Assembly: GCA_016165875.1 (NCBI GenBank)
Contig: JABBOT010000003.1
Coordinates: 25,500,983-25,564,982 of the forward strand
Direction: 5' to 3'
DNA length: 64,000 nucleotides
Origin: Acanthopleura granulata
Lineage: Eukaryota > Mollusca > Polyplacophora > Chitonida > Chitonidae
In this document: in pieces, positions 8,369 through 59,963 of the stretch
Numbering within the stretch: the stretch's first letter is position 1
Layout of the letters: the number at the start of each line of letters is the position of its first letter
The notes under the pieces: model-generated
Databases searched by the model: none
What the model saw: the letters and a program-made list of their open reading frames with translations, nothing else
What the model was told of the DNA's origin: nothing
Position numbers and translations under genes: made by a program

Positions 8369-11300
8369 CAACATCTCACTAAAAGTGCCTGCACTCATAT
8401 GCCACGACCATACTTTTCCTCACAGACCATGGCACGCTGGGGTAATGCTCCCCTGGATGAAAAGCTACTACCCTACCTCCATGTACACTAATGTTACCAA
8501 GCACTTTTACCCAACACTTACATTGTATGTGCCGTCTGCTTTGGCATACATAGCTACTTGTATTAAACAGGCTTTTTATGACAAATGCCAACAATAGTAA
8601 ATCGATTCTCAATATGTAAAAAGTTAAATCAAATTCGCTATCCATGGAGGTATGTTTTTATTCAGATAATTTATTTCAGTGACTTGACAAAAAAACCTGA
8701 TCTCTAGATTACCAAGTTTGATGTTCAGCAGAACTATAACAATGGACTAAAATTTTTGCCATGTTAGTTGTAAGCCAAAATATTTATAGGTTCATCTCCC
8801 AAGAGTACTGTAGTAATGCACTGATCAAGTTAGGCCAATACAGATGAATTATTACATCCAATGTGAAGTAGGTCATGGCCTCTAAATATAAAGTAGCTAT
8901 CCTATTGTAACTGGGTGATGGACTACATATGGAAATCCATGTAACAAGAGTTTGTAATCGCCTGATACTATTTTTATTGCTTCTTACACCATATTGTCTA
9001 CACTGGGATTCTTATACATATATAATACACTGCACTTCTGTGACAGTACAATATGTAGTGTTAGGTTTTAAGGTGTACCAATGTCTAATCCAGTATATTA
9101 GACTCAACACTGTACTGCTGTTACCGTATCCAAACATCCAGCTGAGAAGGTTTTACCAAGTGTATTACTTTCATTACGATTGTACTGTCATTTTTTCTTC
9201 AGGCCAGTATTCAAATGTGACTGATGAATATCTCATGAGGTTTCTGAATATGACACTCAGATTCTGTAAATTTGTTATCTTGTCCAGGCCAGAATTTGAA
9301 AGTGGTTGGTGAATGTCTGGGGAGTGCATGAATATCACACTGTACTGAACTGTTGTTATCACGTCCACCCTAACATATGAATATTGTACATGTATGTATG
9401 CTTCGGTTTTATGTCGTACTCAACAATTTTTCAGTCCTTAGAATTTATATATTGTGTCTTTTTGTGGCAGGGCAAGTCTACATCACCAAAGAGCTTCCAC
9501 CACTTGAACATCATGCTGAAGGCACCAGACATTACACTTCACCCAGTCACATTATACAGAGAGTGGGTCAAACAGTTCTGTTTCCTGCTCTAAGCTCTCA
9601 GTTTTTGAGAGCCAAGCAGGGCGGCAACAAATACCATTTTTGATGCTTTGGGTTCATGAATGTCTTGCATAGTTAATGAATTTCAGGCCTACATATGAAT
9701 GTCTTATGCAGGCCTGCATATGAATGTCTTGGTCAGGCCAGATATGAATGTCTTGTCTAGGCATACATATGAATGTCTTGTCCAGGCCTACATATGAATG
9801 TCTTGTCCAGGCCTACATCTGAATGTTTTGCCCAGATCTGAATATGAATGTCTTGTACAGGTCTACATATGCATGTCTTGTTCAGACCTACATTCGAGTC
9901 TCTTGTCCAGGCTTACATATGAATGTTTTGTCCAGGCCTACATATAAATATCTTGTCTAGACCTACATATAAATGTTTTGTCCAGGCCTACATATGAATG
10001 TCTTGTTCAGGCCTATATATGAGTATCTTGTACGGGCCTACATATGAATGTCTTGTCCACGTCTATATATGAACGTCTTGTTCAGGAGTACATATAAATG
10101 TCTTGTCTACGCCTAAATATGAATGTTTTCCCTAGGCCTACATATGAATGTCTTGCGCAGCCCTATATATGAATGTCTTGTCCAGGCCTACATGTCTATG
10201 AGCATCTTGTACAGGCCTACATATGAATGTTTTCACCAGGCCTACATATGAATGTAGTGGTTCATGAAAGTCTCACAAAATACAAGCATGTATATTATCC
10301 CCTGATGCTTGACCCTCAGTAATGTTTCATTGCTTTCCAACATCATTTAAAAAGGCATCACCAGTTTCCAACTGATCTATTATATTCATAACTGTACTTA
10401 TAATACCCTATCCGCCAATGTTTACTGATAATCAGCACTATACTGTAGTTAGTTATGCTACAGATAAACTTTTATCCAGTCCATTTGAATGTACATCAAT
10501 TCACCCATGTCACACTCAATACTGTACAGCTGCTTGTCTAAGGAAAACCAGCCCACCATTTATTTGGGAGGTATGAGGATTTACTTCTGGCAATACTTAA
10601 ATTTGAGCACCAAATGTAACATTTTAAGACACACATTTATTTACTTAATTTCTGGTCATTTACCATATATTACGGTCAGTATGATATTGTTGTCGCCCTA
10701 TCCTTTCCTATAATACTATACCTCCAAATGCGTCCAAACTACCTCACTGTCTGTAGCTCCTCAACCTTTTCATATATGAAAGAGCAACTTTCAGTGCAGT
10801 TTAGGTACATTTTGATTTGATTTGGGAGACAAAACAACATTGTTTGGGCCGGCTTCACAAAAAGTATAATTTTATCAGTCTGCACAGAATAATGCCTTCA
10901 GATTTATTCATTTATTTGATTTGTATTTTACACTATACTCAAGAATATTTCACTTATAAGACGACGGCCAGTATTATGGTGGAAGGAAACCAGACAAAGC
11001 CCAAGGGAGACCCACAACCATCCAGAGGTTGCTAGCGGATCTTTCCACGTACGGCCAGAGAGGAAGCCAGCATGAGCTAAACTTTAACTCACAGTGATGG
11101 CACTGGTGAGAGACATGCGGTCATGACATCGTGCTGGCATGCTCACCCCCTTGGCCAGAGAGGCCCCCGAATGCCTTCAGAATACGCTTACATAAACGCC
11201 TTGCAAACATACTAAAAGGTTGAAGAATTACAGTATACTATCACCTATATGTATAGTACTGTTCCTACCCCTTCCAGTTCCCTGCTTAAATGCATTTCAA

Positions 11301-31543: not shown

Positions 31544-44742
<13,199 letters not shown>

Positions 44743-48609: not shown

Positions 48610-49728
48610 GAAAACTTGCTGTGTGAAACGGACATTCGGCAGGGTCCTGTAACAGCTACAAGTCCAGCTCAGAAGAAAATCAAGTTGGACTGTTCTGCTG
48701 AATGGAAAAAACCTTTCAAAAACATTGACTCTGTAGAAGGGTGTAACGTTTGCAAAGATACAAGGGTGACCATGTACTTTCAAGATAATGTGGATGAACT
48801 TGAAGCAAGGAGTCTTGGGGGAAAGATATCTCCGTCCCACAAAGCTGAACAGTTGATACATTGTATAAAGGACAAGAAAAGTTCTGCAGAGATCGAGAAC
48901 TCAAATGATGCAACTGTATTTTTGTATAATAACCACAGTCTGAACAACCATAGAAAATCAGATTTAGAAAAGTCAGAAATGAAAAATGATGTCACCCGAA
49001 ATGCTGTAAATCCTGTAGCTTGTCATGAAATTAAAAAGTTGGATGTTCTAGGTAGTTCTGAAGGTTCACTTGATAAGGAATTCAGTGAACATTTAGTAGT
49101 TGAAAATCATCAGTCTCAAGGAACAAATTTTGTTCAAGATCACGAGAACCTAATTTTGGCGAAGGAATCTTCAGTGACAGTTGATTTCTTACATAAGATG
49201 AATGGTGAAAAGGACACATTAATTAGTCATTCTTGTGCTACTGACCTGTCAGCCATGCCCATGACTGCCATAGGAAGAGGAGATCTGAAAAGAAATACTT
49301 CAGCCGTATCAAAAATTGTCTGTGATGAAAATACTACTACAGAGTGCCAAGAAGCCGCAGCGTTGACACGTGAGGAGAATATGATGAGTTGTGGCGACAC
49401 AGTGGTACTAGATGACCTGGAGAAAAGTGAAGTGGGGGAAGATGATCTTGTTTCAGATAATATGTCCTGTGAAAGCATTAAAATGCTGGAAGCTGACAAG
49501 GAAACACCATTAATGTGTGTCAAAAGTGATAAGGAGAAATATGAAGAAAATGCATGCAGATCGGGCAGTTGTAATATTGTTTTACGTCAAGGGAAGCAAT
49601 CCATTGCAGAAGATAAACTGATGTGTGGTAAAAACCCTAGTTCATCTGGAGGTAGACAGACTGTTGTGTATGTACACAGTGATGAATATATGCACCTGTG
49701 TGATGCCATGATTAGAGTGCCTGGAAGG
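48610..49728 (+). CDS. HDAC8: HDAC8 exon with N-terminal extension and first strand of the fold
   Basis: 1,119 bp, phase 0 at both ends. Acceptor TTGATTTGACAG, donor GTAAATAT. An in-frame TGA lies just upstream of the acceptor (48604), so the frame must come from splicing or begin at Met 48772. The first ~350 codons are rich in Ser, Asp, Glu and Lys without repeats or a recognisable domain, probably disordered. The end, [20 protein letters not shown], is the HDAC8 start (VYIYSPEYVSMCD). The in-frame reading continues past the donor into intron to 49935. Confidence 0.85.
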
Positions 49729-52700
49729 GTAAATATTTTACAGGCTGACATTTCATGTAACTTTGGTAAAGTATTTATACTTTTGAGTCCTTTTATATGT
49801 TGCAAAACAGAAATATTTCTGCAGATAGAGGTTATACAGAATAAATACAACCGGCCAAGGAAAAATTGCCATCATATAAGTGAAAATGCCAAACTATACT
49901 ATAGCATTAAAAAACAACCAAATGATCATATATAGTCTGTAAATTAAAATTTCGTATTTAAAAGGTACTTAAATATAGATTTTACCTAAAGTTACATAAA
50001 TTGCTTGTAGATAATGATGTGTGTACTTACGATTATGCTTTGTGTTCTAGGCATGCATGGTGCACAGATTGATTGAGGCTTATGGATTACTGAAATATCT
50101 CTGGTAAATATGATAATTATAAATATTGAATGTGAATGTACTGTTACATTTTGTGATAAAAAATAAAATTTTGAGTTTGGGAATGAAAGTAGAATGTTAT
50201 GGGAGAATGGCAAAAATGGGAAATGATAGGTAAATGTTAACAGAGAAAGACATTTACTTTTCTTTCCTGTTCCAGTGTGGTTCCGCCATCACAGCTAACC
50301 AGGGCAGAAATCTTGAAGTTCCACAGTGAGGAGTATGTGGGCGTGTTGGAGAGACTGGACAAGGATGGGGAGGAGGGATATGACGAGCAGGCACAGAGGT
50401 GTGGACTAGGTGAGGAGTGTGTGGATGTGTTAGAGAGACTGGACAAGGATGGGGAGGAGGGATATAATGAGCAGGCACAGAGGTGTGGACTAGGTGAGGA
50501 ATGTGTGGACGTGTTAGAGAGACTGGACAAGGATGGGGAGGAGGGATATAATGAGCAGGCACAGAGGTGTGGACTAGGTGAGGAGTGTGTGGATGTGTTA
50601 GAGAGACTGGACAAGGATGGGGAGGAGGGATATGACGAGCAGGCACAGAGGTGTGGACTAGGTGAGGAGTGTGTGGACGTGTTAGAGAGACTGGACAAGG
50701 ATGGGGAGGAGGGATATGACGAGCAGGCACAGAGGTGTGGACTAGGTGAGGAGTGTGTGGATGTGTTAGAGAGACTGGACGAGGATGGGGAGGAGGGATA
50801 TGACGAGCAGGCACAGAGGTGTGGACTAGGTGAGGAGTGTGTGGATGTGTTAGAGAGACTGGACAAGGATGGGGAGGAGGGATATGACGAGCAGGCACAG
50901 AGGTGGGACTAGGTGAGGAGTGTGTGGATGTGTTAGAGAGACTGGACAAGGATGGGGAGGAGGGATATAATGAGCAGGCACAGAGGTGTGGACTAGGTGA
51001 GGAGTGTGTGGATGTGTTAGAGAGACTGGACAAGGATGGGGAGGAGGGATATGACCTAACAGGCACAGAGGTGTGGGACTAGGTGAGGAGTATGTGGACG
51101 CAGCAGAGAGACTGGACATGATGGGAGTGAGGGATATAATGAGCAGGCACAGAGGTGTGGACTAGGTGAGGAGTGTGTGGCTGTGTTAGAGAGACTGGAC
51201 AAGGATGGGGAGGAGGGATATGACGAGCAGGCACAGAGGTGGGACTAGGTGAGGAGTGTGTGGATGTGTTAGAGAGACTGGACAAGGATGGGGAGGAGGG
51301 ATATAATGAGCAGGCACAGAGGTGTGGACTAGGTGAGGAGTGTGTGGATGTGTTAGAGAGACTGGACAAGGATGGGGAGGAGGGATATGACGACCAGGCA
51401 CAGAGGTGTGGACTAGGTGAGGAGTGTGTGGATGTGTTAGAGAGACTGGACAAGGATGGGGAGGAGGGATATAATGAGCAGGCACAGAGGTGTGGACTAG
51501 GTGAGGAGTGTGTGGATGTGTTAGAGACTGGACAAGGATGGGAAGGAGGGATATAATGAGCAGGCACAGAGGTGTGGACTAGGTGAGGAGTGTGTGGACG
51601 TGTTAGAGAGACTGGACAAGGATGGGGAGGAGGGATATAACGAGCAGGCACAGAGGTGTGGACTAGGTGAGGAGTGTGTGGATGTGTTAGAGAGACTGAA
51701 CAAGGATGGGGAGGAGGGATATGACGAGCAGGCACAGAGGTGTGGACTAGGTGAGGAGTATGTGGAGGTGAGGGTGTGGATGTGTTAGAGAGACTGGACA
51801 AGGATGGGGAGGAGGGATATGACGAGCAGGCACAGAGGTGGGACTAGGTGAGGAGTGTGTGGATGTGTTAGAGAGACTGGACAAGGATGGGGAGGAGGGA
51901 TATGACGAAAGCAAGGGCACAGAGGTGTGGACTAGTGGGGAGGAGGTGTGGATGTGTTAGAGAGACTGGGACGCGATTGGGAGGAGGATATGACGAAGCA
52001 ACAGAGGTGTGGACTAGGTGAGGAGGTGTGGATGTAAGTAGGAGAGACTGAACAAGGATGGGGAGGAGGGATATGACGAAAGCAGGCACAGTGGACTAGG
52101 TGAGGAGTGTGTGGCTGCCAGGTGAGACTGGACAAGGATGGGGGAGGAGGATAGACGAGCAGGCACAGAGGTGGACTAGGTGAGGAGTGTGTGGATGTGT
52201 TAGAGAGACTGAACAAGGATGGGGAGGAGGGATATGACGAGCAGGCACAGAGGTGTGGACTAGGTGAGGAGTGTGTGGATGTGTTAGAGAGACTGGACAA
52301 GGATGGGGAGGAGGGATATAATGAGCAAGCACAGAGGTGTGGACTAGGTGAGGAGTGTGTGGGCGTGTTAGAGAGACTGGACAAGGATGGCGAGGAGGGA
52401 TATAATGAGCAGGCACAGAGGTGTGGACTAGGTGAGGAGTGTGTGGGCGTCTTAGAGAGACTGGACAAGGATGGCGAGGAGGGATATAATGAGCAGGCAC
52501 AGAGGTGTGGACTAGGTGAGGAGTGTGTGGGCGTGTTAGAGAGACTGGACAAGGATGGGGAGGAGGGATATAATGAGCAGGCACAGAGGTGTGGACTAGG
52601 TGAGGAGTGTGTGGCTGTGTTAGAGAGACTGGACAAGGATGGCGAGGAGGGATATGACGAGCAGGCACAGAGGTATGGACTAGGTGAGGAGCGTGTGGAC

Positions 52701-55700
52701 GTGTTAGAGAGACTGGACAAGGATGGGGAGGAGGGATATCATGAGCAGGCACAGAGGTGTGGACTAGGTGAGGAGTGTGGGGACGTGTTAGAGAGACTGG
52801 ACAAGGATGGGGAGGAGGGATATGACGAGCAAGCACAGAGGTGTGGACTAGGTGGGGAGTGTGTGGCTGTGTTAGAGAGACTGGACAAGGATGGGGAGGA
52901 GGGATATGACGAGCAGGCACAGAGGTGTGGACTAGGTGAGGAGTGTGTGGACGTGTTAGAGAGACTGGACAAGGATGGGGAGGAGGGATATGACGAGCAG
53001 GCACAGAGGTGTGGACTAGGTGAGGAGTGTGTGGATGTGTTAGAGAGACTGGACAAGGATGGGGAGGAGGGATATAATGAGCAGGCACAGAGGTGTGGAC
53101 TAGGTGAGGAGCGTGTGGATGTGTTAGAGAGACTGAACAAGGATGGGGAGGAGGAATATGACGAGCAGGCACAGAGGTGTGGACTAGGTGAGGAGTGTGG
53201 GGATGTGTTAGAGAGACTGGACAAGGATGGGGAGGAGGGATATGACGAGCAGGCACAGAGGTGTGGACTAGGTGAGGAGTGTGTGGCTGTGTTAGAGAGA
53301 CTGGACAAGGATGGGGAGGAGGGATATGAGGAGCAGGCACAGAGGTGTGGACTAGGTGAGGAGTGTGTGGATGTGTTAGAGAGACTGGACAAGGATGGGG
53401 AGGAGGGATATGACGAGCAGGCACAGAGGTGTGGACTAGGTGAGGAGTGTGTGGACGTGTTAGAGAGACTGGACAAGGATGGGGAGGAGGGATATAACGA
53501 GCAGGCACAGAGGTGTGGACTAGGTGAGGAGTGTGTGGATGTGTTAGAGAGACTGGACAAGGATGGGGAGGAGGGATATGACGAGCAGGCACAGAGGTGT
53601 GGACTAGGTGAGGAGTGTGTGGATGTGTTAGAGAGACTGGACAAGGATGGGGAGGAGGGATATAATGAGCAGGCACAGAGGTGTGGACTAGGTGAGGAGT
53701 GTGTGGATGTGTTAGAGAGACTGGACAAGGATGGGGAGGAGGGATATAATGAGCAGGCACAGAGATGTGGACTAGGTGAGGAGTGTGTGGATGTGTTAAA
53801 GAGACTGAACAAGGATGGGGAGGAGGGATATGACGACCAGGCACAGAGGTGTGGACTAGGTGAGGAGGGTGTGGATGTGTTAGAGAGACTGGACAAGGAT
53901 GGGGAGGAGGGATATGACGACCAGGCACAGAGGTGTGGACTTGTTGAGGAATGTGTGGGTGTGTTACAGAGACATTTTCGAAATGTCCTTTCACATTTAT
54001 CACATGATGGAATGTTGTTATTGGCATCGTGTCACTACTGTAACATATAAATTCTGCACAATTGAAAACCTGATCACCTGAGGTCTTAAACTTTTGAACT
54101 GAATCAATGTTACTTACCCCTGTGAGATGTATCACGGGGGTGGGGGGGGAATTACATTAGGAGTAATGTAACTTCTCCAAAACTCCTGTTTCAGGTTATG
54201 ACTGTCCTGCAGAACCAGGGGTGTATGAATATGCGACCTCCGTGGCAGGGGCCACTGTCACAGCTGCCCAGTGCCTGATGGAGGGCAAATGTACAGTGGC
54301 CATCAACTGGTTTGGAGGATGGCATCATGCAAAGAAGTAAGAATAACACTGTCTTGTTTCCATATTTTCTCCAGCATGTGGAAAAATAAAATTTATAAAA
54401 TTATTTCAGTGAATATTGCTGAAAAATTAATGAAGGGCTGTACAGTAGGTTTGTTTATCACAATAAAATCAGAAGTTCCCAGACAATAAAGTTCTAGTTT
54501 CTGTACAAAAACAGAGTCTTTAATCTACAGGATGCTGCGAAGTACTTTGCAGATGATTTATTTTTTTCAGGTACATGAAACTCCAAACGTATCAGCGATT
54601 AAATTGAAAGATTGTGGTGCACAGATTAAAAGCTAATCCTTAGTGTTAAAAATATGTTTCATTTTGACCAAATTTGATGTGTTTAAGAGATGAAGCCTCT
54701 GGGTTTTGTTATGTGAATGACATTGTGCTGGGGATTCTGAAGCTGAGGGAGAAGTACCAGAGAGTTCTGTACATTGACCTTGACCTTCACCATGGTGACG
54801 GTATGATTGGCTACATTATATCCTCACAGCTGTTGCTGTAAATGATGTAAATAAAGTTTTAAAATATCTGGGAATTAAATGAATATATGTCCAAGCTTAA
54901 AGGAAATTTTTGCTTCCAATCTGAATAAGAAGCAGTTCACATGCAAAGAGAACACATTTTTACTACATTCTCAGGCTTTGTCGTATTGTCTGAAATGATT
55001 TTGTACTTCAACCTCACATAATTTGGTAAAAGAAAGAACAAGGAGAATTTATCCAGGAAATTAAATTGTTCAAAATGATTTATCTGCTGTGGTTTTGTGT
55101 TAACACAGGAGTTGAAGATGCCTTTACAGCAACCTCCAAAGTGTTCACGGTATCTTTTCATAAGTACTCTGCGGGATTTTTCCCTGGTAAGACGTTTTTA
55201 GAATAAGATATAACATTGGGTTTCCCCTGAATATAGCTTTGCTAACTGTCATAAATTACAGCAGTGCGCGAGGAACTGAAAAAAAGAAAATTGGGGGATT
55301 AAAGATGTCTGATTAACACAACATGTGAGATGATGATCCTGAATGTATTCAGCATTTTTTTCAACTCTAGTTGAAAATTTTTAGCCTTCCATACAAAACT
55401 GCATTCAACCATAAAAGTACTCTATAAAACACATGGGAGATGGGTTGATAGCATATAACATTTGTCATTTAATTCCCGTTATGTCTTTTTTACTTCAAAA
55501 CTAGGCACAGGCTCCATAAAGGATGTTGGATTTGGGAAAGGCCGTTTTTTCTCATTGAACATGCCTCTCCTTGATGGAATCCGAGATCAGCAGTTCTTCT
55601 CTTTATTTTCAAGGTATATTTTTAACTTTTGTTTTTACTTGTGAAAGGCGACAGATTGGAAACACTTGAGGAAATTTGCGTGTAGCAAACTTTAATACAT

Positions 55701-58700
55701 ATACATATATATGCACATCATTAATCGCAGCTTTTCATTAATCAGTTCAGGGGTTCATAGAATTCATTTTTCCACCAACCGACCATTTCTCTGAGGAGGA
55801 AATTGAGTTTTTCTTTCAATCGAAATTTAATTTTTTTTTTGTTTTGACCAGCTTTTTAAGGTACTGAAATTGAATGTTTTTGTAGTTAACATTCCTCATT
55901 AACTGAAGTAATTGTAAGTGTCTGTATATGAACTCAAGCTGGTCTTTGAACTGTAAGATATTACCAATTGATAACAAGTATAAATTGCTGTTGTCGTTAT
56001 TTCAAGCTTTCCACACACAAACATTGTTGAGGTCTGTGAAGACTCATCCAGAAGCTTACAACCAAGATAATCTGGATTGAAACTCTATGCCATTGGTGTT
56101 GACAGCACTTTGAACAACAAATACTTCAGCCTTGAATCATTATACAGTATTGGTGTCATACTGGATTAAGGAAATTGTAGCAGTGATTCTCAGTCAGTGA
56201 AAAGGCAGTAAAAAATGATGTACTTGAAAGGTTGAGGGAAAAGCACTAAATCACAACAACATACATGTACAAACAAAAAACAGTTGAGACAGATCATAGG
56301 TGATTAATAATCATGAAACATCTTACCTGAAAGTAATAATGGACGTAGATGAATATTCTATTAACTGTCAAAATTTTATTGAATTATTATCCTTACTTCT
56401 GAGGATAAACATTCCAGTTCACATCACCGGTCAGTTATAAAAGCCGACTTGGCTTTCCTTGACTCATTGTTGTTGTTTCACTCGTGATAACTAATGACAG
56501 CCTGACTGACAGAACTTCCATACAAGTCAGCAATCTGTTGGCCTAGTTCACAGTGCAAAACCTTGATGAGAATCCATATACACATGTAACTGGCACAGGG
56601 CTTTGTAAGGCTTGAAAATGTTGGTAAAAAGTGCGCAGGTTAGAATGCGGCATGTCCAGTGAAAAACTCTGTAAAAGTCTAAGCCATCTATCGAAGCTCA
56701 TGCAATCGAAAAAAGAGATTTAATTTTTTGGTCGCAGAAACCAAAATTTTAGTCGCATGTGTGACCAGTTAGTCGTTAACTTTAAGTCCTGATTTATTTT
56801 ATGGCTGTGTGCAATTAGCATCTGTCAAAGTTCACGCGATCAAAAAAGAAATCTGCAGCAAACTATGAGTGCAGTGTAAGTTGCTTTTGCTGGTAATGCC
56901 ACCTGGCGTGAGGGGGAAGGAACCGGCCAGACTGTGTGCCAGGTGAAGTCAAAAACAGAATTATCTGGAACCATAGAAATAGGTCAAGTTTATTCGCAAG
57001 GATTGGTAGAGACCCAAAAAGCTTAGTGTTCATCATGTTTGATTTTACAAGTTCCTCAGATGCCAAAAAAGCCCTCTCCAGTCTAAATCAACGCGCTTGG
57101 TCATGTGGATGACCATACAAGGGAGATAACTCGTAACACGCTATTCAAATTGAATTTATGTAAAGCTTTGAATATTTCTGTCCAAAAACATATATTGAAT
57201 AAATTGTAACCATGTAATAAGTTTTTTATTCAGTCAGCCAACCAAGTTCTGGTTGGTCCAGACAACATATGTAAACCCCTGCAGTTATATATTAACTATT
57301 GAAAGCAATAAACCAATTACATGCAAGTATTACATGCAAAATGTGATAATCAAACCTTATAGGTTGTCAGTTCCTGAGATTGTCTTAGCCTGGTTAAGCT
57401 GCTTGTTACTTGTGTGGGTAACTTTGAAGCTTAGTAAATACTCAGCGTTAAAAAGAATTGGTGAAAAAGATAAGATAGATGACCATTTTGAATTTCAAAA
57501 GTAGTCACAAGATTTTTTGTGTAAATTGTACCGCTTATCTTTCCCCGGGAAATGGTGTGTAGGCACTGGGAGAAGAATTTATTTTCAACACTTGTGCTTT
57601 GATAATGGATCCAGAACTCATTAGTATGTTTCTGTGATAGGTCAATGTTACATAGTACATGTAGAAAATCTTTTAAATAGTTTAATATTTTAGACTTAAC
57701 AGGTTAGGTTAACAGGATATGAAGAGGAAATAAGAGAAAAACGGAAAAGCAGTTATCAGTTTTTCAAAGAACAAGCAAGTGTATAGCAATACTACTGACA
57801 GTAAGCATGAAAATGCACTTGTCTAGGTTTTTCTTATAGGTGACAGAAATATGTATGTATAATATGATAAAATGGTATTTCGCCTCACCCTGCTTTAGAG
57901 TCATGGAGAAAGTGCGCGAAGTTTTCTCACCTGAGGTCGTAGTGTGCCAGTGTGGAGCAGATGGTCTAGCTGGTGATCCCATGAACGCCTTCAACCTGAC
58001 CCATCTCAGTTTGGGACGCTGTGTGTACTCTCTACTACATTGGAATCTTCCATTGCTGCTTCTTGGGGGAGGTTGGTTCTAGATCTTGTATTTCTCACCT
58101 TTCTGGCATCTGTTATAAACTAAATCCTGTGTGTTTTGTTGGTGGGAAGTATATGCTTAACCTTTTGAACTATATCACTTTGTAGAGAAATGCCATCGTG
58201 TAGAATGTCTCCGGTGCATGTTTACAACAGTGTTGGGTAAAAACAGATCTTAACCTTTCTGTTCCATTCAGTGAAGAGTATGTGTTTGTTAAAATTATAC
58301 ATATACCCGTACAGACAATTTAATTGCTGTGTTTAAGTTTATTATGTAAAAGTACACTTTCAGGCCTTAGAATGACACTTTTGATGCCAGTGAAAAATTT
58401 TTTCGCATAAGAAGTTAATGAAACTTCACAAAACAACCCCTAAGTGTCCATATAAGATGGATGAATCTGTCATGAATCAAGTTTAGTGTGTTCAGTAAAG
58501 AACTGAACTTTAGGTCCACTACAGCTTTTGTTTTTGTTTTTGTTTGGATGAAATCTAGATATGCAGCAAGATTTTTCTGCTCTGTCATGCAAATTTGAAA
58601 GAAATTTACAAGATGATTGTTATCAAAATTAATCAAGATTATAGTAAAACTAACCAAAAACTACTATACATTAATTCTAAATCTACCAAATGATAAAACC

Positions 58701-59963
58701 ATCACTATGTTGGCAGGTGGGTATGAGCATGCTAATACAGCCCGGTGTTGGACATTTATCACCAGTATTGCTGTGTCCAAGAAGTTACCTGAAGACATTC
58801 CAGATCATCAAGTAAGTGTACTGATCTCAAACCTTATGCTAAAAAAATAAAGTAAACACTTAAGTTCACACTGAACAATTATTTAGAATTCATATGTTCA
58901 CCCGCTTATATGACACTACCTGTTATGTTAGAGATCACTGTAGAAAAAGACGGAGACCTTCATGGCAGAGGGGGGTTAGCGTGCTAGTGCAGTGTAATAA
59001 CCCTTGTGCCTCTCACTGAGGTCGCTGTGAGCTCAAGCCTAGCTCATGCTTGCTTCCTCTTTGCTTGGTCAATTTATGTAAAATGTTACATCAACAATAT
59101 TCAGGTTTGAAAAAGTGCCTCAGAAGAGTGACTCCCTCCAAAAATGATGGTACAATTACATTAGTTTAATTCACTGAAGGGTTGTGGGTTTCCCCGAGTG
59201 CTTTCCCAGGTTTCCTCCCACCATAATGCTGGTCGCTGTAGTATAAGTGAAATATTCTTGAGTGTGGCTTAAAACACTAATCAAATAAATAAATAAACAA
59301 ATAGAACAAGAATATTGTTTGAGCAATTAATGTAAACTGCCACAATCTATCAAAATGTTATCACTAACTACATGTAAGCTTTTGTTGGCTTATACCTGTA
59401 AAGAAAACAAATCAAACATCGATTCATCAACCAGTTTAAGTTTAGACTCTGCTTAATGTTTTATTTTTTGATTTGCTTCGTTTTTGAAGTACTTCACGAA
59501 ATATGGTCCAAGCTATGAGCTGGCCATGACTGCTGGGAACAGGAAAAACTTGAACACACCAGAGTATTTGACAGACGTCTATCGCAAAGCTCTAGGTAGG
59601 TTTGTTTACCGTGGAGATATTTTCATATTTGGTGTTCCTTCCTGTGATGTCTGATTGACTGCCCGGTCTCAGTTGTAGGTTTCTTTATCAGTTGTCTACA
59701 GACAACCATGATTTCAAAAATGAAAAACAAAATACAATTAACAGCTTTTGAGTTGTGCCATTGTGACAACTGATGTCCCGGTGAAAAGTGACCTCATTGT
59801 TCAGGACTCTTTGACTATCTTTCTGCAAATTAGTATTTTAATGTGAAATGTGCTATCTCTTTCTTGCTAGTGGAAGCAGAGGTGTTTTAAACTGATGCTG
59901 TTTTGTATTTCAGGTATTTTGCAGAAGACATCCAAAATCTTGGCATGTAATGAGGTTGTTTAA
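48610..59963 (+). CDS. HDAC8: histone deacetylase 8, with long N-terminal extension and an amplified exon
   Basis: Class I zinc-dependent lysine deacetylase (histones, SMC3 cohesin). Eleven exons join in phase to 724 codons including TAA at 59961-59963. The last ~373 residues align throughout with human HDAC8 (377 aa): [105 protein letters not shown]. The zinc ligands (Asp178, His180 and Asp267 equivalents at 54782, 54788 and 57960), the His142/143 pair, catalytic Tyr306 (58722) and the HDAC8-type DPM are all present, as are the redox cysteines 102 and 153. The C-terminus ends just after the fold, as in HDAC8 and unlike HDAC1-3. The first exon with the start codon is not identified; the first in-frame Met of the long exon is at 48772 (ACCATG context). 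Oddities: N-terminal extension, 84-bp array after exon 3, Cys for PKA site Ser39. Confidence 0.93.
49729..50050 (+). other. HDAC8 intron between the N-terminal exon and the next
   Basis: AT-rich, 322 bp. The reading frame of the upstream exon continues open to 49935, which leaves room for intron retention, but a standard donor and acceptor are present. No other feature seen. Confidence 0.7.
50051..50103 (+). CDS. HDAC8: HDAC8 exon '[11 protein letters not shown]'
   Basis: Acceptor GTGTTCTAG, donor GTAAATATG; 17 codons plus 2 nt: [17 protein letters not shown]. Matches human ASMVHSLIEAYALHK. The human PKA target Ser39 is Cys here. Confidence 0.9.
50276..50409 (+). CDS. HDAC8: HDAC8 exon ending at the first array donor (array unit 1)
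   Basis: Acceptor CCTGTTCCAG at 50275. [20 protein letters not shown] then [25 protein letters not shown] plus 1 nt. Homologous to the human segment MATFHTDAYLQHLQK..EYGLG. The donor CTAG|GTGAGG at 50410 gives phase 1, joining the 54195 acceptor to restore GLG-YDCP. Bases 50326-50409 are array unit 1. In-frame donors also exist at 50494, 50578, 50662, 50746 and 50830. Confidence 0.85.
50326..53973 (+). repeat. 84-bp tandem array of an HDAC8 exon end plus its splice donor, 43 units and a partial
   Basis: Units start at 50326, 50410, 50494, 50578 and so on; from 52264 to 53944 twenty units are exactly 84 bp. Each begins GTGAGGAGT(A/G)TGTGG and ends GTGTGGACTAG. In the plus frame the unit reads [20 protein letters not shown] then QAQRCGLG. 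Unit 1 is the real exon; the rest is formally intron. Common variants: GACGAG/AATGAG (D/N), GTGGAT/GTGGGC/GTGGCT (D/G/A). Indels fall in units 7 (83 bp), 9-11, 15, 18 (97 bp) and 19-22. The unit 19/20 junction and the last junction (CTTG|TTGAGG at 53943) lack GT. The array ends about 30 bp into unit 44, then unique intron sequence. Confidence 0.97.
50410..54194 (+). other. HDAC8 intron made almost wholly of exon-derived repeats
   Basis: If the first donor is used, this 3,785-bp intron consists of 42 extra exon-end copies (50410-53943), a partial copy, and about 220 bp of unique sequence with acceptor CTCCTGTTTCAG before 54195. Confidence 0.8.
54195..54336 (+). CDS. HDAC8: HDAC8 exon with YDCP loop and HH pair
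   Basis: [20 protein letters not shown] then [20 protein letters not shown] and GGWHHAKK. Contains the L2 loop Tyr-Asp-Cys (human Tyr100-Asp101-Cys102) and the tandem catalytic His. Donor GTAAGAAT. Confidence 0.95.
54688..54800 (+). CDS. HDAC8: HDAC8 exon with zinc-binding DLDLH
   Basis: [20 protein letters not shown] then [18 protein letters not shown]; acceptor GTGTTTAAG, donor GTATGATT. Zinc ligands Asp and His at 54782 and 54788. Confidence 0.95.
55109..55186 (+). CDS. HDAC8: HDAC8 exon '[19 protein letters not shown]'
   Basis: Acceptor TTAACACAG, donor GTAAGACG; 25 codons plus split glycines, [20 protein letters not shown] then AGFFP. Phase 1 in and out. Confidence 0.95.
55505..55613 (+). 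CDS. HDAC8: HDAC8 exon '[15 protein letters not shown]'
   Basis: Acceptor CAAAACTAG, donor [28 protein letters not shown] then [15 protein letters not shown] plus 2 nt, matching human [20 protein letters not shown]. Confidence 0.95.
55614..57898 (+). other. HDAC8 intron (2.3 kb)
   Basis: Between the TGSIKDV exon and the zinc-ligand exon. AT-rich; contains AAGGGAGATAACTC at about 57119. No gene or intact mobile element recognised. Confidence 0.65.
57899..58071 (+). CDS. HDAC8: HDAC8 exon with third zinc ligand
   Basis: Acceptor CTGCTTTAG, donor [28 protein letters not shown] then [38 protein letters not shown]. The Asp at 57960 is the zinc ligand; GDPM is the HDAC8-type variant of the GDRL motif in HDAC1-3. 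Confidence 0.95.
58072..58716 (+). other. HDAC8 intron (645 bp)
   Basis: Plain AT-rich intron; nothing recognised. Confidence 0.65.
58717..58811 (+). CDS. HDAC8: HDAC8 exon with catalytic tyrosine
   Basis: Acceptor ATGTTGGCAG, donor [28 protein letters not shown] then [12 protein letters not shown]. The Tyr at 58722 corresponds to human Tyr306. Confidence 0.95.
58960..59300 (+). mobile_element. SINE copy in HDAC8 intron
   Basis: Head CATGGCAGAGGGGGGTTAGC then GTCGCTGTGAGCTCAAGCCT, then GTTGTGGGTTTCCCCGAGTG, GTTTCCTCCCACCATAATGC, GTGTGGCTTAAAACACTAAT and CAAATAAATAAATAAACAAA. Same orientation as HDAC8. Confidence 0.75.
59490..59595 (+). CDS. HDAC8: HDAC8 penultimate exon
   Basis: Acceptor CGTTTTTGAAG, donor [28 protein letters not shown] then [22 protein letters not shown] is the conserved class I ending. 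Confidence 0.92.
59914..59963 (+). CDS. HDAC8: HDAC8 last exon with stop
   Basis: Acceptor TTTGTATTTCAG. Encodes [19 protein letters not shown] at 59961-59963. Length and position match the short C-terminal helix of human HDAC8. Confidence 0.88.

Follow-up and report, generated by a model that had tools for sequence, protein, structure and literature searches.

The third intron of the gene for HDAC8, a class I histone deacetylase, opens in the chiton Acanthopleura granulata with a large tandem array whose 84-bp unit repeats the end of the preceding exon together with its 5' splice site (donor). The gene lies in a stretch of 64,000 nucleotides (contig JABBOT010000003.1, positions 25,500,983 to 25,564,982), all of which was analysed; it is called the window here, and coordinates refer to it. 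We estimate a probability of about three in four that the array is a tolerated minisatellite that was seeded at the exon 3–intron 3 boundary, lengthened a pre-existing intron, and left the first donor mostly in use.

The host gene was modelled by locating exons with a human HDAC8 probe sequence and joining them at GT/AG sites, which gave 11 exons on the plus strand and a continuous 380-residue core that begins in exon 1 and ends at a stop codon in exon 11. The resulting protein matches Pfam PF00850 (Hist_deacetyl) with E 2.6e-84, and its best PDB matches are HDAC8 structures (E 3.5e-141, versus 2.3e-108 for HDAC2). Among the best 120 of 7988 scoring proteins, the best named matches are HDAC8, the closest being the Liolophura sinensis HDAC8-like protein (93% identity, covering 99% of the query, against 62% for the next match). 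With both the domain and the best match among HDACs in agreement, the gene is, by sequence, HDAC8, the identity proposed in a first-pass annotation of the same DNA.

Tandem Repeats Finder (TRF) reports a single array at 50326-53973 (period 84, 43.4 copies, 91% matches, score 5966), and our own wrap-around alignment divides it into 43 units of ~84 bp and a 30-bp partial unit, the latter an addition to the 43-unit array that the first-pass annotation had described correctly. As assembled, unit 1 is the final 84 bp of HDAC8 exon 3, so that the repeated segment is indeed the exon end with its donor and the intron has, as suggested, been lengthened by tandem copies of it. Counted from unit 1, the array takes in coding exon, and the part that is intronic is 50410-53973. 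Both edges adjoin unique sequence belonging to HDAC8, and the array is genuine as far as one assembly shows. It is rich in purines (74%) and in G (46%). Among 32 clean units the mean pairwise difference is 4.1%, and the 33 units of exactly 84 bp encode 15 distinct peptides, rather than the same 28 residues each time as had been supposed. Within units 23-43 the difference is lowest between neighbours (3.55 bases, against 3.7-4.8 otherwise) and depends little on distance, and no marked dip at unit spacings of 1 to 12, such as a higher-order repeat would give, was seen there. No copy of the unit was found elsewhere in the window at E 1e-3, and no Rfam family of structured RNA reached its gathering score in the window. 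On the minus strand, an open frame of 686 codons (52096-54156) runs antisense to the array because the unit has no stop in that frame; this is no evidence of a gene.

The sequence TAG/GTGAGG, with the slash at the splice boundary, is present at 40 of the 43 junctions and TAG/GTGGGG at one; GT is thus kept at 41 of 43, in line with the first-pass claim of a donor at nearly every junction, and is lost between units 19 and 20 and between units 43 and 44. The word TAG/GTGAGG is absent from both strands of the rest of the window. By the textbook donor matrix used, however, the sequence outside the array (60,362 bases) contains 18 sites, 7 on the plus strand and 11 on the minus strand, that equal or exceed the score of TAG/GTGAGG. 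Inside the array, acceptor-like sites number zero at three of four search settings and five at the loosest, whereas 13 control pieces of the same length gave means of ~10 to 64; the four settings recover 8, 8, 6 and 4 of the ten modelled acceptors. In the absence of a convincing acceptor inside the array, all donors share the single acceptor before 54195, as had been claimed. Together with the purine- and G-rich composition, this result also indicates, within the limits of the test, that the units repeat the end of an exon and not its start.

When exon 3 is ended at the first donor, the protein aligns to the Liolophura HDAC8-like protein with 350 of 377 aligned columns identical and one gap of one residue, and the Liolophura protein contains one copy of the unit. 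Judged from sequence, donor 1 is most likely the one mainly used, with donors 2-6 perhaps leaking. The donors would compete for one acceptor, and the spliceosome would most likely pick the first, yielding a 134-bp exon and normal HDAC8 while units 2-44 are spliced out. Low-level leakage from donors 2-6 may occur, each adding 28 residues in frame, and use of a later donor would, in the assembled sequence, introduce a premature stop.

The array would have started with a tandem duplication of an exon-3 segment crossing the exon 3–intron 3 boundary. Exon 3 contains GTGAGGA at 50326, and 84 bp further on the donor reads GTGAGG; pairing of these words during replication or recombination is a likely seed, and would have duplicated exactly the 84-bp segment. 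Unequal exchange and slippage may then have enlarged and homogenised the array to ~43 units, the existing intron being lengthened by the added units. The last 221 bp before the acceptor share with the unit or the exon only two 7-bp words, a chance level. Since this remainder is unrelated to the exon, the intron probably predates the array, and the first-pass suggestion of intron gain gives way to lengthening of an older intron. Intron gain by tandem duplication of an exon piece bearing AGGT, known as the Rogers model, is described for ATP2A1 and potato RdRp, and repeated 24-bp AGGT segments for fission yeast genes (PMC4974935). What the chiton array has in common with that model is that exon sequence with a donor-like site has been duplicated in tandem, in the fission yeast genes several times over. 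It differs in that the Rogers model produces a new intron whose GT and AG both come from the duplicated segment, whereas the units here hold no convincing acceptor and the one in use lies in the unrelated 221 bp.

Only donors 1-6 of the 43 leave HDAC8 open. From donor 7 onward, every product includes, as assembled, the TAG with which unit 7 ends, a consequence of indels in the assembled units; ten units within units 7-22 carry such indels, and the expectation that phase is the same at each donor holds no further than donor 6. The six identical donors and a unit length that is a multiple of 3 recall a different explanation, which we consider unlikely, in which several donors are in regular use and the array is kept as an in-frame ladder giving HDAC8 forms with 0, 1, 2 or more extra 28-residue helix-loop units in the loop that directly precedes the conserved Tyr-Asp-Cys-Pro. 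Use of downstream repeat donors has a precedent in the human IFI6 minisatellite, where it gives three mRNA species (PMC4526556). A structure predicted for the Liolophura protein (33 sequences; mean predicted local distance difference test score, pLDDT, 71.6) would also suit such a ladder, the unit covering residues 220-232, which form a helix, then a short helix at 239-243 and, before Tyr248-Asp249, a loop modelled with moderate confidence; residues 231-250 are modelled with confidence of 67 and 71, below their surroundings. We take the equivalent loop of human HDAC8 to border the substrate site, its Asp101 presumably binding substrate. An extra unit there could be accommodated, or it could impair enzyme function. 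The 210-residue repeat peptide alone yielded no usable fold (mean pLDDT 45, from a single sequence), which is unfavourable to the ladder. As candidates for a known domain in this peptide, six Pfam matches were considered and taken as repeat artefacts: no single stretch passes alone, although the matches to DUF2795 (E 1.4e-10) and PPR exceed their whole-protein cut-offs.

Selection was tested on 32 clean units; of the 44, the ten that carry indels were excluded, as were unit 1 and the partial unit. Variation at donor positions (2 of 9) is in line with that overall (19 of 84; P 0.67), the number of synonymous changes, 8 among 23 distinct ones, is not significantly above the 6.1 expected (P 0.24), and in-frame stops are not in short supply (0 seen, 0.64 expected). 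Within their power, these tests give no indication that donors or frame are under selection, and the first-pass notion of a selected splice-choice or decoy device finds no backing. The fourth codon of the unit points the same way. It encodes Tyr in 31 and Phe in 2 of 33 aligned HDAC8s, and unit 1 keeps Tyr, whereas the 43 later copies read Cys in 37, Arg in 2, Gly in 1, Tyr in 1 and are unreadable in 2 (unit 18, counted as Cys, holds an insertion that also allows Tyr); thus, the constraint on HDAC8 seems to rest on unit 1. Of the three roles offered in the first-pass annotation, the best supported is that of a satellite tolerated since one donor, the first, is enough; both this Tyr and the Liolophura alignment speak for it. 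A separate observation concerns positions 50340-50342, where the exon copy reads Val-Gly-Val, with a Gly that is absent from all 33 aligned HDAC8s. Units 25-27 carry this GGC codon too (52362-52364, 52446-52448, 52530-52532), so exon and array may have exchanged sequence, or the change occurred twice.

Relatives give the ladder no support either. Among the best 120 of 7988 scoring proteins, the distance from FH to YDCP is 32-43 residues in all 108 that could be measured, with no 28-residue insert; the other 12 do not fit the pattern, and five of them show no insert in the alignment. Protein-database searches with the array, each covering the ~8000 best word-sharing candidates, returned Liolophura HDAC8 alone, or nothing.

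The stop in unit 7 would be central to another explanation, in which later donors bring a premature stop into a share of HDAC8 transcripts and the length of the array tunes output, as a length polymorphism would. A variable number of tandem repeats (VNTR) at an exon–intron boundary of human CBS is reportedly associated with lower enzyme activity, according to the title of a 2001 paper by Lievers, and in the assembled chiton sequence 37 of the 43 junctions (two of them without GT) would yield an exon holding the unit-7 TAG. The frame breaks fall, however, in a block that resembles sequencing noise, so the stops may not exist, and we think such a brake improbable.

That block spans units 7-22, which hold all 30 indel events (in 10 units) against none in the other 27 units; by shuffling, 10 indel-bearing units within a span of 16 have P 4e-5. 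Substitutions are spread at about even density, with 12 in units 1-6, 32 in units 7-22 and 53 in units 23-43. The confinement of indels against evenly spread substitutions points to uncorrected long-read noise, since evolution would be expected to leave more substitutions, and the case is strongest for units 18-22, with 22 indel events and 7 substitutions (units 7-17 have 8 and 25). Units 7-22 are therefore probably for the most part uncorrected long-read sequence. A published Acanthopleura granulata assembly is a Nanopore–Illumina hybrid (PMC7850002); accurate HiFi reads, with which such noise would be less likely, were used for other chiton assemblies (PMC12005716), reportedly including that of Liolophura (PMC11068029).

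A fault in the assembly could extend further, making the whole array or its length wrong. The clustered indels, their ratio to substitutions in units 18-22, which is that of unpolished long-read filling, and the hybrid origin of a published assembly of this species would all be compatible with this. On the other hand, distinct in-register variants occur at both ends at similar substitution density, an arrangement that plain duplication of reads would not produce, and both edges join unique sequence of the same gene; we regard an artefact of this kind as very improbable. If the indels of units 7-22 are noise, the array may be open throughout in a single frame, with some forty equivalent donors, and exon 3 could act as a length dial, adding 0 to ~40 helix-loop units of 28 residues near the catalytic centre. 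This is a long shot in our judgement; if true, a single exon would give a graded enzyme series without cassette exons.

Several points weigh against a tolerated minisatellite with a dominant first donor. Use of that donor is deduced from one assembled sequence, and the seed is conjectured from the junctions as they now stand. On its right, the array closes with a 30-bp partial unit that resembles the full unit too closely for chance, so the first event may have differed from the one proposed. Six in-frame donors and a unit that is a multiple of 3 would fit a selected isoform ladder as well, and concerted exchange between near-identical units lowers the power of the selection tests.

Features of HDAC8 and of the array in intron 3 (window coordinates).
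Feature	Position	Strand	Basis
HDAC8 exon 1 as modelled: ~350-codon N-terminal extension, then start of HDAC8 domain; 5' limit uncertain	48611..49728	+	gene model, Pfam
HDAC8 exon 2, 53 bp	50051..50103	+	probe, gene model
HDAC8 exon 3 via first donor, 134 bp; final 84 bp are unit 1	50276..50409	+	gene model, alignment
84-bp minisatellite, 43 units and 30-bp partial; begins in exon 3 (unit 1) and continues into intron 3 (units 2-44)	50326..53973	+	TRF and own alignment
Donor 1 (TAG/GTGAGG), predicted to give normal HDAC8; top score among the model's ten donors	50410..50415	+	donor matrix
Donors 1-6, each keeping the HDAC8 frame open and adding 0 to 5 28-residue units	50410, 50494, 50578, 50662, 50746, 50830	+	frame check
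Units 2-6, clean, 84 bp each	50410..50829	+	alignment
Units 7-22, all 30 indel events, in 10 of 16 units; worst in units 18-22 (51751-52179)	50830..52179	+	alignment
Units 23-43, all 21 exactly 84 bp long and in one open frame	52180..53943	+	alignment, open-frame scan
Partial last unit, 30 bp; donor GT reads TT	53944..53973	+	alignment
Non-repeat remainder of intron 3; acceptor AG at 54193-54194	53974..54194	+	gene model, word comparison
HDAC8 exon 4, next exon for every array donor in the model	54195..54336	+	probe, gene model
HDAC8 exon 5	54688-54800	+	gene model
HDAC8 exon 6	55109-55186	+	gene model
HDAC8 exon 7	55505-55613	+	gene model
HDAC8 exon 8	57899-58071	+	gene model
HDAC8 exon 9	58717-58811	+	gene model
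HDAC8 exon 10	59490-59595	+	gene model
HDAC8 exon 11, 59914 to TAA at 59961-59963	59914..59963	+	gene model

The N-terminal extension (48611-49728) matches no Pfam family, and the exon or exons with the start codon were not located upstream. The Liolophura protein has a shorter N-terminal extension than this model, and its residues 1-156 have pLDDT <50. Elsewhere in the window, a second minisatellite at 36937-37245 (51 bp x 6.1, 92% matches) has open frames on both strands, and its units contain a donor-like motif, TAGGTGAAG; another lies at 9684-10255 (25 bp x 22.8, 78% matches). A stretch at 59200-59310, with ATAAATAAATAAACAAATA at its end, is presumably akin to a dispersed SINE-like repeat common in molluscs. 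On the minus strand, an open reading frame at 31547-31918 has a sub-threshold glutamine amidotransferase match (E 0.00091); we take it to resemble the end of CTP synthase.

The array appears, from its sequence and the gene model, to be a boundary-spanning minisatellite of the kind found in human IFI6 and CBS, with a coding first unit, intronic later units and a repeated donor. The IFI6 (G1P3, 6-16) minisatellite was reportedly presented, in the title of a 1995 paper by Turri, Cuin and Porter, as having multiple splice donor sites. Its unit is 12 bp. The likeness to the chiton array is that a minisatellite supplies several splice donors; the difference is that in IFI6 the unit is short and alternative donor use has been shown, whereas in chiton HDAC8 the unit is 84 bp, the units number 43, and the arrangement in an otherwise ordinary gene is known from DNA. 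The CBS VNTR has a 31-bp unit, c.1444_1467+7, in 16-21 copies (PMC2630376). Read from that name, the unit spans the junction with 24 exonic and 7 intronic bases and, like the chiton unit, repeats the donor region; it differs in its known polymorphism, in its lower copy number, and in a length not divisible by 3. Human segmental duplications likewise contain variable internal tandem repeats at exon–intron boundaries (PMC2812944). There too, boundary minisatellites alter the extent of intron and exon, with units averaging 30 bp x 4, against 84 bp x 43 here. The human DDX3Y minisatellite was considered as a precedent and set aside, as its repeats hold a transcription start and not repeated donors in the portion of PMC3039753 available.

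The IFI6 and CBS boundary minisatellites are the nearest precedents, the chiton array being larger than that of CBS and also that of IFI6. No published description of such an HDAC8 array was found in the searches made of open-licence papers. On sequence grounds the array is at present best taken as a large tolerated repeat. As such, it offers a natural experiment in splicing, a choice among some forty near-identical donors at ~84-bp spacing with one acceptor, most of them far beyond ordinary exon length, in which the decision could fall by exon length, position or chance. The array may also be read as a record of an intron growing out of its own exon.

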